From assembly GCA_017439305.1 (NCBI GenBank), contig JAFSJK010000018.1:21777-85776 (forward strand): 64,000 nucleotides of DNA, read 5' to 3'. Positions within the stretch are counted from its first letter, which is position 1. Every line of letters starts with the position of its first letter. The notes below the pieces were generated by a model that worked only from the letters and a program-made list of their open reading frames with translations, ran no database searches and was not told the DNA's origin. Of the stretch, positions 29,150 to 32,589 are shown one piece after another. The position numbers and the translations under genes are program-made. The DNA comes from Bacteroidales bacterium (GTDB lineage Bacteria; Bacteroidota; Bacteroidia; Bacteroidales; UBA932).

Positions 29150-30312
29150 TGGATTCAAACGAAAATGTAAGATATGACTGCTTCCGCGGGTGCGTGATCA
29201 GCGGAAATGAGGAGACGGGGATGGAGGAGATCCGCTACCGCCAGGGTTGCTGCAAGTTGGAGGTGTACGACTACCTCAAGGGCATCGGCCAGGAGCAGTT
29301 CGGCAACCTCTTCGAGGTCCGTTTCAAGAATACCCGCAAAGGCATCTATGTCAATGCCTCCGGCCAGAGCATCAAGACCGGCGACCTGGTTGTCGTTGAG
29401 GCGCAGACGGGCCACGATCTGGGCATCGTGACCCTGGAAGGGCCGATCGTCGCGCGCCAGATGAAGTGCAAGGGCATCGACCCGGAAAAGACGGTCTTCA
29501 AGAAGATTTACCGGAAGGCGAAGCCTTTCGACATCGAACGCTGGCAGGACGCCATCGCCCGCGAGCAGGAAACGATGATCCGCTCCCGCGTGCTGGCCGC
29601 CAACCTGGGCCTGGAGATGAAGATCGGCGACGTGGAATTCCAGGGGGACGGTACGAAGGCCATTTTCTATTATATCGCCGATGGCCGCGTGGATTTCCGG
29701 CAACTGATCAAGGATTTCGCCGAGGAGTTCCATATTCGCGTGGAAATGAAGCAGATCGGCGCCCGTCAGGAAGCGGGCCTCATCGGCGGCCTGGGTATCT
29801 GTGGGCGTGAACTGTGCTGCGCCAATTACATCACGGAGTTCAAGTCCATCACGACCTCCGCGGCCCGGGTGCAGGACCTTTCCCTGAACCCGCAGAAATT
29901 GGCCGGCCAGTGCGGCAAGCTCAAGTGCTGCCTGAACTATGAGGTCTCGGCCTACATGGATGCCCACACCCGGATTCCGAAAGTGACGGAACCGCTTGAG
30001 TTCGAGGACGGTCTGGCTTACCTTGTGAAGACGGACATCCTCCGTGAGACGATGTATTTCTCCTATGAGAAAGGCTCCCTGGCAAAAATGTACCCGCTTC
30101 CGGCCTCCGAAGTGCGCGAAATCATCATGATGAACCGCAACGGCCAGAAACCGGAAACGCTTCTTCCCGATGTGGAGCCGGCCGCCCCGGAATTCGTCTC
30201 CGCCGTCGGTGACGACAGCATCTCCCGCTTCGACGAGGCGCGCAAGAAAAAGCACCGGAACAAGTCTGGGAACCGGAATCGAAAGAATAACAAACCTAGG
30301 AAAGATGCGTAG
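29146..30312 (+). CDS. ricT: PSP1/RicT-family regulatory protein
   Basis: A 388-residue homologue of YaaT/RicT, which in Bacillus works with partners in RNase Y-dependent mRNA processing. The PSP1 domain spans about residues 40-280 and includes IGARQEAGLIGGLGICGREL. Two cysteine clusters, CGRELCC and QCGKLKCCLNYE, match the proposed iron-sulfur ligands. The C-terminus is a basic, disordered K/R/N-rich tail (KSGNRNRKNNK). The stop codon at 30310-30312 lies inside the left arm of palindromic element copy 1. Confidence 0.88.
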   Translation: MMDSNENVRYDCFRGCVISGNEETGMEEIRYRQGCCKLEVYDYLKGIGQEQFGNLFEVRFKNTRKGIYVNASGQSIKTGDLVVVEAQTGHDLGIVTLEGPIVARQMKCKGIDPEKTVFKKIYRKAKPFDIERWQDAIAREQETMIRSRVLAANLGLEMKIGDVEFQGDGTKAIFYYIADGRVDFRQLIKDFAEEFHIRVEMKQIGARQEAGLIGGLGICGRELCCANYITEFKSITTSAARVQDLSLNPQKLAGQCGKLKCCLNYEVSAYMDAHTRIPKVTEPLEFEDGLAYLVKTDILRETMYFSYEKGSLAKMYPLPASEVREIIMMNRNGQKPETLLPDVEPAAPEFVSAVGDDSISRFDEARKKKHRNKSGNRNRKNNKPRKDA

Positions 30313-30835
30313 ATCGGGTATGACTTCCACAAACCGTCGCTCCGCGACCCCTCCCATCAAAGATGGGCCCCTCCCTCTTATGCGCCCGAGGGTGGGCACA
30401 GGTTTGTGGAAGTCATACCCGATCTACATCGTGCTATTGATAATCTTAGTGTCGGGTTGCAAGGAACCGATGTCGGTGGAGAGGTTTGTGAAAGGGGAGG
30501 GACCGTATACGTTCTTCGTCGATCTGAGTGACAGTACGGCTACCTATGATTTTGAATTCTATACACGGGTGGATGCGCCGCTGGATTCCCTGCGGAAGTT
30601 GTCGGCCCTGCCGCTCCAGGTGACTTGGACCTCTCCTTCTTTCCATGTTTTCCGGGAGGAAGTGTATATGCCCCTGGAGGGCAGGACTACCTTCTTCTCC
30701 CGGGAAGTCCGGGCTCCCTACCGGGCGGATATCCAGCCGGTGGAACCGGGACCCTGGACGCTGATGGTCCGGGCGGAAGATCTTCCGGAAGGATTCTGCG
30801 GACTGGGGTTGGTCGTCAAACGGAATCGACAGTAA
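30305..30835 (+). CDS. GldH-like lipoprotein with palindromic insertion at its 5' end
   Basis: A 176-residue predicted lipoprotein. The hydrophobic segment YIVLLIILVSGC ends in a lipobox (cysteine near residue 55), unusually far from the first ATG, because palindromic element copy 1 (30309-30427) occupies codons 2-41. Two readings of the start are possible: ATG 30305 overlapping the ricT stop, or ATG 30380 inside the element, which gives a compact signal peptide MRPRVGTGLWKSYPIYIV. The mature part (DFEFYTRVD, LPLQVTWTSPSF) fits gliding-motility lipoprotein GldH, commonly found after ricT, but similarity is weak and I assign no symbol. Confidence 0.6.
   Translation: MRRSGMTSTNRRSATPPIKDGPLPLMRPRVGTGLWKSYPIYIVLLIILVSGCKEPMSVERFVKGEGPYTFFVDLSDSTATYDFEFYTRVDAPLDSLRKLSALPLQVTWTSPSFHVFREEVYMPLEGRTTFFSREVRAPYRADIQPVEPGPWTLMVRAEDLPEGFCGLGLVVKRNRQ
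30309..30427 (+). repeat. palindromic in-frame insertion element, copy 1
   Basis: A 119-bp element: perfect 27-bp inverted arms (30309-30335 and 30401-30427) around a core. The shared core with the innermost arm bases is 30331-30405 (75 nt) and contains three small hairpins: GTCGC/GCGAC at 30336-30348, CCCATC/GATGGG at 30353-30367, and GCCC/GGGC at 30384-30397. The core is translated in the gldH-like frame as NRRSATPPIKDGPLPLM and onward. It matches copy 2 at 73 of 75 core positions. There is no T-run after the arms, so it is not a simple terminator. Confidence 0.92.
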
Positions 30836-31776
30836 TGGGACACGGTAAACTCAGGAAATTTGCGGAGAACGAGACTTTCCGCTGCCTGCTGCAACCGGAT
30901 GCGGCCTCGGTCCTGGCCAAGCCGGAAGGTTCGAAGGAATTGATTCTCAGGGACCATGCCATCAAGGGCCGGTGGAATGCCGAGATGTTCGCGAAGCCCC
31001 AGCCCATCGTCGTGGAACTGGGCTGCGGCAAAGGGGATTACACCATCGCCCTGGCCCGCCGGCATCCGGAAATGAATTTCATCGGCGTGGACATCAAGGG
31101 TGCCCGGCTGTGGAAAGGGGCCAAGGAAGCGACGGAGGACGCGCTCGGGAACGTGGCCTTCCTCCGTACGCGCATCGAGTTCATCGACGCCTTTTTCGGG
31201 CCCTCCGAGGTTTCCGAAATCTGGCTCACCTTCTCCGACCCCCAGCTCCGCGGCAGCGAGAACGCCCGCCTCACCTCTCCGCTCTTCCTGCAGCGCTACA
31301 GCCGTTTCCTGGCCCCCGGCGGCATCGTCCATCTGAAGACGGATTCCCGTTTCCTGTACGAATACACCCAGTCTGTCATCCGCGCCAATGATTTGCAGGT
31401 CCTGGCATCGGGAACGGATATATACAGCGAGGGAGTTCGGACAGGGGTGACTCTTGAAAACCGTCGCTCCGCGACCCCTCCCATCAAAGATGGGCCCCTC
31501 CCTCTTATGCGGCCGAGGGTGGCCACAGGTTTTCAAGAGTCACCCCTGTCCGATAATGTCGAATGGGATATCGAGTCAGTGTTCGAGGTGCAGACTTTCT
31601 ATGAGAGTATGTTCCTGAAGATGGGGCTGCCCATTACCTATCTGGCGTTCCGGCTGGACCGGGCAGACCTTCCGGCGGGGGCGCCGTTCGCGTATCCGAC
31701 GGATTTTGATGCGACTTACTGGCGCGAGGCGGAGGGACCGCGCCGGTCGTTCTCCCATCAGCCGACGAAAGGATAG
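30835..31776 (+). CDS. trmB: tRNA (guanine-N7)-methyltransferase with internal insertion
   Basis: Makes m7G46 in tRNA using S-adenosylmethionine. It has 313 residues, longer than usual for the family. The SAM motif VVELGCGKGDYTIALARRHP lies near residue 60; FIGVDIKGARLWKGAKEA follows, and the signature TFSDPQLRGSENARLTS near residue 137 corresponds to the DPWPKKRH region. The C-terminal VQTFYESMFL matches the conserved end of TrmB. Between DIYSEGV and DNVEWDIES lies a 32-codon palindromic insertion (copy 2). It falls in a variable segment, so activity may be kept. Start overlaps the gldH-like stop by one base. Confidence 0.9.
   Translation: MGHGKLRKFAENETFRCLLQPDAASVLAKPEGSKELILRDHAIKGRWNAEMFAKPQPIVVELGCGKGDYTIALARRHPEMNFIGVDIKGARLWKGAKEATEDALGNVAFLRTRIEFIDAFFGPSEVSEIWLTFSDPQLRGSENARLTSPLFLQRYSRFLAPGGIVHLKTDSRFLYEYTQSVIRANDLQVLASGTDIYSEGVRTGVTLENRRSATPPIKDGPLPLMRPRVATGFQESPLSDNVEWDIESVFEVQTFYESMFLKMGLPITYLAFRLDRADLPAGAPFAYPTDFDATYWREAEGPRRSFSHQPTKG
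31437..31553 (+). repeat. palindromic in-frame insertion element, copy 2
   Basis: A 117-bp element inside trmB: perfect 26-bp inverted arms (31437-31462 and 31528-31553) around the same core as copy 1 (31458-31532 by the 75-nt definition). Arm sequences outside the inner AAACC/GGTTT differ completely from copy 1. The only core differences from copy 1 are at 31512 (G for C) and 31523 (C for G), which form a base pair in the third hairpin. It is translated in the same frame as copy 1 (NRRSATPPIKDGPLPLM). Confidence 0.92.
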
Positions 31777-32589
31777 TCAGGGTTTTACCCAGTGGATGCG
31801 GACCCCGTCGCGCTCCATGCCGCGGAACCAGGTCATCTGCCGTTTGGCAAACTGATGGATGGCGTTGGCAAGGAGGATGTGCATCTCCTCGTAGGACAGT
31901 TGGCCCAGCAAATACTGTGTAACGAACTTATATTCAAGTCCATACCATAGCAGGTCCTCAGCAGGGACGCCGCTGTCCAGAAGGCCCTGGACTTCTTCGA
32001 CGAGGCCCTCTTCCAGCCTTTCGTCCAGACGGCGGTCAATCCGGGCGACGCGTTCTTCGCGGGAAACCAGGGTGCCGATGTAGAAGGTCTTCTGCGGAAG
32101 CTGCCCAGCAGGGACACCATTCTCCTTGTCGAACTTGTAGGCGCGGGTGGCGGCTTCGATATACAGGCCGGAGCCGCCGCACAGGATGGGGATGCGGCCC
32201 CGGGAGCGGACGTCGGCCCAAGCCTCGGCGAAAGCCGACTGGAACTCGTAGATGTTGTATTTGCTGCCGGCCGGCACGATGTCGATCAAATGATAGGGCA
32301 CCTCGCCATACTCCCCGAGGTCCTTTCCCGTCCCGATATCCATGCCGCGGTACACCTGCCGGGAATCGGCCGACAGGATTTCGGCATTGCCCAAGGCGCG
32401 GGCCAGCTGCACCGCATACCGCGTCTTGCCGGAGGCGGTGGGCCCGAGGACGCAGATGAGGTCGATGTCCCCGTCGGCACAGGCTTTCGCCAGGGCGGCG
32501 GTGTCGATGGTTTCGGCCTCGGGCATCGCAGCCATCGGCGGGATGCCGGGCCGGTCGGGCAGGAGATTGGTTTTGTTCGGGAGACCCAT
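31777..32589 (-). CDS. miaA: tRNA dimethylallyltransferase, short form
   Basis: Transfers dimethylallyl to A37 of UNN-reading tRNAs. The P-loop GPTASGKT is at residue 48, later than usual, so translation may start at ATG 32535 or 32526. [30 protein letters not shown] and the C-terminal [20 protein letters not shown] and [17 protein letters not shown] match the Bacteroidetes family. At most 270 residues, it appears to lack about 60 residues between [11 protein letters not shown] and KTFYIGTLV, where relatives carry the RAIRAIEI-type region. It is convergent with trmB (stops adjacent). Confidence 0.85.

Follow-up and report, generated by a model that had tools for sequence, protein, structure and literature searches.

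A dispersed palindromic element of Bacteroidales with a conserved folded core and mostly copy-specific arms

The DNA analyzed here, a window of 64,000 nucleotides from a gut-dwelling Bacteroidales bacterium of the UBA932 lineage (assembly GCA_017439305.1, contig JAFSJK010000018.1, positions 21,777 to 85,776), harbors two copies of a short palindromic element, one at the start of a short gene and one within trmB. The two copies share their core and not their arms, which raises the question of what kind of element retains its center while its ends differ from copy to copy, and by what means those ends are kept complementary. Our results indicate that both copies belong to a dispersed family with a conserved folded core. 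We propose, at a probability of about 0.5, that this family is a small non-autonomous mobile element that is moved in trans and whose arms are rewritten locally by replication template switching.

Two elements in the window and the range of the family

A repeat search identified a 75-nt direct repeat (30331-30405 and 31458-31532, in positions of the window) that is 97% identical, with 2 differing positions. The repeat takes in the inner ends of the arms, and the remaining arm sequence is unlike between the two copies. Both consist of a 65-nt core between 100% inverted arms, of 27 bp in copy 1 and 26 bp in copy 2. When up to 3 mismatches were allowed, a 25-nt segment of the core matched twice in the window and not at all in shuffled sequences, and together with the repeat search this establishes that the two copies seen in the initial annotation are real and carry perfect arms. 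The arms lie outside the shared part: except for the inner AAACC, they differ between the copies. The features are as follows.

30309..30427, minus strand (wobble-tolerant and probably functional): copy 1, whole element
30309..30335, unstranded: copy 1 arm, 27 bp, perfect complement of 30401-30427, overlapping the stop codon of the upstream open reading frame (ORF)
30401..30427, unstranded: copy 1 second arm, from the inverted-repeat search
30336..30348, minus strand: copy 1 core hairpin P1 (GTCGC..GCGAC)
30353..30367, minus strand: copy 1 core hairpin P2 (CCCAT..ATGGG)
30381..30400, minus strand: copy 1 core hairpin Pa, 30381-30387 with 30394-30400
30373..30392, minus strand: copy 1 pseudoknot, 30373-30377 (CCCTC) with 30388-30392 (GAGGG, in the Pa loop)
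30305..30835, plus strand: host ORF of copy 1, a short frame that by eye resembles a lipoprotein gene (hydrophobic stretch followed by Cys)
31437..31553, minus strand: copy 2, whole element
31437..31462, unstranded: copy 2 arm, 26 bp, perfect complement of 31528-31553, from the inverted-repeat search
31528..31553, unstranded: copy 2 second arm, from the inverted-repeat search
31463..31527, minus strand: copy 2 core, with P1 at 31463-31475, P2 at 31480-31494, Pa at 31508-31514 with 31521-31527, and the pseudoknot at 31500-31504 with 31515-31519
30835..31776, plus strand: trmB, tRNA (guanosine-46-N7)-methyltransferase, host of copy 2 (NF001080, E 6.8e-70)

The family match supports the trmB label, and its best stretch, residues 3-203, ends at the start of the element. 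Copy 1 overlaps the stop codon that closes the upstream ORF as well as the opening codons of the lipoprotein-like ORF. The latter has no Pfam or NCBIfam match at E 0.01, which leaves its earlier label, gldH-like, without support. An in-frame ATG lies in the copy 1 core at 30380 and is followed by basic residues, then by the hydrophobic stretch and Cys; the element may provide the start codon of this gene.

The genome of origin (G000) harbors 18 copies, and the possibility raised earlier that only these two exist was not borne out. Seventeen places were found with the 75-nt core (21 rows, of which 3 are second halves of other rows and 1, L021, was taken as chance), and one copy (G000:C27:1071-1152) was added by a covariance model. 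Inverted arms with a score of at least 13 are present at 16 of the 17 places, the exception being L014 (score 8); at L004, a contig end truncates the copy. L019 and L020 differ in the tail of the core and are assigned to a sister family. Beyond this genome, the core matched in at least 37 of 61 genomes of the genus, and the covariance model (E 1e-4) matched at least 54 of the 199 family genomes, spread over 10 of 25 genera, and at least 5 of 295 genomes of the order, 3 of these outside the family. G000 is included in every range count, the filters make the counts lower bounds, and the genomes compared are one per species and mostly draft assemblies. An exact pattern was present in at least 119 stretches of public contigs; each of these 119 titles refers to Bacteroidales or Bacteroidia, and many belong to metagenome-assembled genomes from ruminant gut. 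Viral contigs gave 0 exact matches to this pattern, and plasmids gave no match to the core. An Rfam search of 30100-31800 at E up to 5 returned a single weak hit outside the elements, in agreement with the earlier impression that the sequence is unlike any recognized family, and we did not find the family described in the open-access literature.

The folded core and its placement in genes

An alignment of 56 cores, out of the 82 left after filtering by length and motif, yields a closing stem, three hairpins (Pa, P2, and P1), and the pseudoknot. The 31 pairs of this model are formed in 94.5% of the cells, and 16 pairs have changed on both sides. Such two-sided changes occupy 208 cells, compared to 61 in shuffles, with 0 of 500 shuffles as high; the same holds for the covariation score (0 of 500), and for four of the five measures the value is above that of every one of the 500 shuffles. 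Four pairs of the pseudoknot are invariant among the 56 cores, and the support for the pseudoknot is supplied by the sister family, in which CCCTC/GAGGG of the main family is replaced by CCCGT/ACGGG (once GCGGG) at ten places. The core is a conserved structure with strong compensatory change. Three points count against the model: 57 of the 500 shuffles attain the value of the fifth covariation measure, further pair types, pair 9-24 fails in 21 of the 56 cores, and some cores with a long P1 are misaligned.

Mismatches in the arms point to the strand that folds. We collected 200 distinct elements by core motif and an arm score of at least 11 (218 before duplicate removal), a set in which sampling was not random and related copies cannot be treated as independent. 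The arms are free of mismatches in 83 of them and contain a single mismatch in 65. On the strand as read, the 193 mismatches in 4839 cells comprise 91 A-C, 26 G-T, and 76 others, which on the minus strand corresponds to 91 G-U versus 26 A-C (p 1e-9). In hairpin P2, G-U exceeds A-C by 29 to 4 among 100 distinct sequences, and P1 is uninformative (1 to 1). Because G-U is favored on the minus strand in both arms and P2, this strand, antisense to trmB and to the copy 1 ORF, is most likely the single strand that folds and functions. The excess is located in the outer arm (82:18) and is absent from the inner ten positions (9:8). When divided by gene context it is 39:12, 40:7, and 12:7, significant in two of the three; the non-significant 12 to 7 is found where the folding strand is the coding strand, and the excess could be explained as a mutational strand bias, both of which weigh against this assignment. 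Both strands fold far better than shuffles, a result that does not discriminate between them.

Variants of the core were also observed. At two sites in three genomes (L052, L055, L244, and L246), an extra hairpin (GGGGCCCCCGAAAATCTG..GATTTTTGGGG) replaces CCTCTTATG, as if the core were itself the target of a module. In trmB of some relatives (L069, L070, and L072), a longer variant (GGCGCCAGCAGGCGCC..CCGCGGGGGATAATAGGGGGC) takes the place of the usual core.

Sufficient flanking sequence was available for 186 copies. Of these, 106 are located inside an ORF that extends over 150 or more amino acids outside the element, compared to 527 of 625 random stretches taken from the same loci. The element is thus tolerated in genes, yet rarer there than chance. 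These 106 copies fall into the three forward frames 30, 17, and 15 times and 44 times in reverse, so the single frame that the initial annotation noted is true of the two window copies but not of the family, which uses several frames and both orientations, and the bias for one frame that it envisaged is not seen. By comparison with relatives, 8 of 16 tested G000 copies are in frame inside genes (trmB, truA-like, murB-like, sugar nucleotidyltransferase-like, glycosyltransferase-like, ABC ATPase-like, and two others); host names other than trmB come from reading the sequence rather than from a family search, and some frame calls may reflect spurious ORFs in GC-rich DNA. We read trmB in 29 relatives, which are the top hits among 364 matching genomes and were not sampled at random. 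In the trmB loop, 17 of them have an element, decayed in some cases, with different arms, and the other 12 have no recognizable element; the earlier alternative of a sequence native to this gene in all relatives was not borne out. With many copies, different arms, and hosts that include conserved genes, the proposal of a dispersed, coding-compatible palindromic family has held.

Could the core be an RNA that serves the host? The strong conservation of structure, mainly on one strand, and the deficit in long ORFs would suit a structured RNA or attenuator spread by selection rather than selfishly. We regard this as highly improbable, as copies occur in both orientations relative to host genes, are missing from close relatives, and have inserted inside unrelated conserved genes. 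Core orientation also varies at shared sites: both orientations are seen at 10 of 13 sites common to two or more genomes, and at L006 the core is reversed while the arms are 29/30 identical.

Other repeats occupy the same kinds of places. An unrelated palindromic repeat, about GTCATTCCGAGCGAAGCGAAGGAATCT, is present at loop and gene-end sites of the element (L057, L059, L225-L227, L236, L256, and L257) and is translated in frame in several cases, for example, as VIPSEAKESL in trmB; judging from these sequences, such protein loops appear to be hot spots for unrelated palindromes. A further type, around ATTCCCGGTCAAGCCGGGAATGACGG and GGCCGGTC..GGCCATGACG, is found at the murB-like, truA-like, and one gene-end site (L258, L259, L268, L273, L274, and L278). 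In one trmB gene (L079, genome G037), two elements of different families, one of them truncated, and a third repeat leave the frame open.

Locus-private arms and their possible origin

In genome G449, the seven copies read, of at least 23 matches in this genome, have a core identity of 0.94 and an outer-arm identity of 0.56, against a random baseline of 0.54. Their arms measure 27-36 bp and have 0, 0, 0, 1, 1, 0, and 0 mismatches per pair, that is, 2 in seven pairs. Eight copies in G014 (L303 and L304, which failed the motif filter, are left out) give 0.96 for the core and 0.53 for the outer arms versus 0.54 at random, with 2, 2, 1, 0, 3, 2, 2, and 2 mismatches. When 16 G000 arms (L004 was not queried) were compared with the rest of the genome, nothing beyond their own arms was found below E 0.48. 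A weak consensus in fixed register, about GGRGGRGGGTATACCTCC toward the core-side AAACC, is discernible in 121 arms of at least 22 nt, where the identity per position of the outer part is 0.36-0.39 versus 0.25 expected; these arms were selected partly by their inner end.

Shared sites give some indication of how arms change. Within the G000 clade, arms (0.71) and the variable part of the core (0.72) diverge alike (80 pairs). Between G000 and G335, arms are nearly identical at some sites and unlike at others, a pattern that, in the sequences compared, looks like replacement rather than gradual change. Independent insertions at the same hot spots are another reading of it.

Three sources or uses of the arms were considered and rejected. 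The longest stretch in common with nearby flanks was no greater for an element's own flanks than for others (159 of the 200 elements, 32 being excluded for arms shorter than 18 nt and 9 for short flanks). Copying from elsewhere in the genome was set aside given that the 16 G000 arms have no other match below E 0.48. As for guides that target phages, 49 perfect arms searched against 50,697 phage records gave two hits of 24-25 nt, at E 1 and 4.

In the explanation that we favor, the approximately 65-nt core folds on the minus strand, with three hairpins and the pseudoknot, at the tip of a 20- to 30-bp palindrome. An enzyme acting in trans would recognize this folded minus strand, as single-stranded DNA or RNA, and insert the unit at tolerated places such as gene ends and protein loops. 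After insertion, replication template switching within the palindrome would copy one arm onto the other, pull flanking host DNA into the palindrome as inverted copies, and invert the core. Arms would thereby become locus specific, and the core would remain under selection for recognition. Template switching is proposed because the arms stay complementary while changing and because the core inverts, and such switching has been reported to homogenize arms and invert spacers in the cases set out in PMC8604942. At the site of copy 1, the last codon and stop of the upstream gene (GCA/GCG TAG) lie within the arm in G064, G231, and G294, and the end of this gene is partly in the arm of G000 and G216, with an inverted copy on the far side, which fits outward extension of the arms; in G335 the arms are mismatched.

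Several observations weigh against this explanation. In the rows of PMC8604942 considered here, inverted spacers are short (3-5 bp), far below 65 nt. Arm unlikeness at the random level needs very fast rewriting, and such unlikeness among near-perfect arms is not easily explained by template switching. Arms resemble their own flanks no more than other flanks. Private arms are not universal, in that the two L300 copies of G014, a tandem duplicate, have their outer arm in common, L305 of this genome has part of the L300 arm, and the distant G756 has the same arm at seven places. No mover was identified: neither reverse transcriptase nor Y1 genes were found in all element-bearing genomes, six positive genomes, including the copy-rich G014, G016, and G058, have no Y1 gene, and a motif search of 20 Y1 loci (about 2.5 kb on each side, some cut by contig ends) found no element. 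A clean target-site duplication was not found either, with a possible TA at L019 and a possible short repeat at L007.

Within the genus, 31 of the 37 genomes that have the element and 11 of the 24 that lack it contain Y1 (HUH) genes (Fisher p 0.004), an association that may be confounded by genome completeness. A Y1 transposase was rejected as the mover, being associated but not adjacent in the 20 loci read. Those loci (L348-L367) come from genomes with several diverse, RAYT-like Y1 genes of about 300 amino acids, with no element found nearby. A reverse transcriptase was likewise rejected, as RVT_1 is found in 13 of the 37 genomes with the element and 6 of the 24 without it (p 0.57), in drafts that may miss genes.

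In G756 (L378, L383, L387, and L389-L393), the shared arms are accompanied by partly shared outer flanks and variable cores, the opposite of the window family. These shared arms would accord with an ordinary miniature inverted-repeat transposable element (MITE) or a Rickettsia palindromic element (RPE), in which arms diverged and cores were homogenized by gene conversion. The weak arm consensus in fixed register is in its favor, as is L009, where arms are 92% alike between G000 and G335 and the variable part of the core 66%, with the G000 form present at two other G000 sites. We nevertheless judge this quite unlikely. Genome-wide concerted evolution of cores was tested in the G000 clade and not found: for 50 elements at 14 sites, P1/P2 similarity between the sites of one genome was 0.615, compared to a permuted mean of 0.632. 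Slow divergence, moreover, would hardly yield random-level outer arms with 0-1 mismatches per pair, as in G449.

A different origin of the arms is that they are made on the target. The core would join the nicked target after a sequence X and fold back by its CC/GG ends, and a polymerase would extend on X, so that the far arm is inverted native DNA (X-core-reverse(X)-Y). This would account jointly for private arms, the near-perfect pairing in G449, and the weak consensus, as a target preference. In trmB, the arm 5' of the core on the strand as read reads as native protein (EGI/GIRTG, as in element-less relatives), and in the ABC-type ATPase gene the arm codes for SSGG where element-less relatives have ASGA. 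An apparent empty trmB site in G148 (L056) keeps the 5' arm alone. However, this site is equally explained by a deletion between GAAAA repeats, and L055 resembles a scar with both outer arms; L056 was rejected as proof of a target-derived arm, as neither arm is present at other empty sites. At four sites, the flanks of some relatives without the element (5/6 for L003, 3/7 for L006, 4/7 for L011, and 2/7 for L019) are only 1-8 nt apart, by approximate lengths, which leaves room for neither arm. One G014 site is empty in seven relatives, and in two genes the extra length exceeds that of the complete element by 2-5 nt. For trmB and the ABC gene, it falls 12-15 nt short of the complete element, between the predictions of both models. 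The protein sequences of trmB and the ABC gene may thus lean toward arm synthesis on the target, and the four sites, which lie at gene ends or outside genes, together with the two genes appear to lean toward insertion of a whole unit. For the G449 insertion sites, ten of eleven relatives matched, with flanks 66-91% alike, and the spacers looked too diverged to define empty sites. We consider target-templated insertion rather unlikely but still a serious alternative. The broader notion, that a structured single-stranded core, probably RNA, builds a fresh locus-private palindrome at each insertion by templated inverted synthesis, is somewhat less doubtful and is put forward tentatively. If true, only the folded core would be inherited, and each palindrome would record its own insertion.

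Comparison with known systems

Palindromic mobile DNAs usually share their ends, since transposases read the ends. In the family described here the ends are mostly private and the center is conserved, and therefore either the folded core is what is recognized or each move is accompanied or followed by a rebuilding of the ends. MITEs are similar in being short, with terminal inverted repeats and no gene of their own. Their ends, in the account given in PMC10969869, are common to a related insertion sequence (IS), whereas the ends here are mostly unshared even among copies. No parent element turned up in the loci that were read, a parent IS not having been sought systematically.

The REPIN/RAYT system offers another likeness, that of a non-autonomous, hairpin-forming miniature element with compensatory changes and a plausible single-strand intermediate, and genomes of the genus have several Y1 genes that we read as RAYT-like. 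REPINs, as characterized in PMC3116915, are extragenic and are more conserved at their ends than in the spacer. The layout here is reversed, with a conserved core and variable ends, more than half of the copies with enough flank (106/186) lie inside long ORFs, and no element stands beside the 20 Y1 loci read, other Y1 loci not having been read. Template-switch quasipalindromes match the perfect arms and core flips through arm homogenization and spacer inversion. The examples in PMC8604942, in contrast, are local mutations, with short spacers in the inversions considered here, whereas here a dispersed, conserved core is carried at the tip.

In lifestyle, the parallel drawn in the initial annotation holds. 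RPEs are described in PMC10969869 as palindromic sequences of about 150 bp, dispersed and often translated in frame in unrelated genes, and the window family is likewise dispersed, palindromic, and translated in frame in unrelated genes (8 of 16 G000 copies). The parallel does not extend to anatomy. RPE families have a conserved peptide in the same account and are reported to lose repeat identity over time (PMC6649704). Here, a pseudoknotted core is conserved, several frames are used, and the arms are mostly copy specific and still complementary. Set against the published descriptions of RPEs, the copies here do not share sequence along the whole element: the core is shared and the outer arms are at the random level (G449 and G014) or unique (G000), with L300/L305 and G756 as exceptions. 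The many natural in-frame insertions at loops of conserved enzymes provide a ready test of protein tolerance to inserts, and the family offers a natural record of palindrome evolution, by arm copying and core flipping, across many related genomes. The element lives in the manner of Rickettsia palindromic elements but without their shared-sequence feature, and it is possibly a new kind of element.

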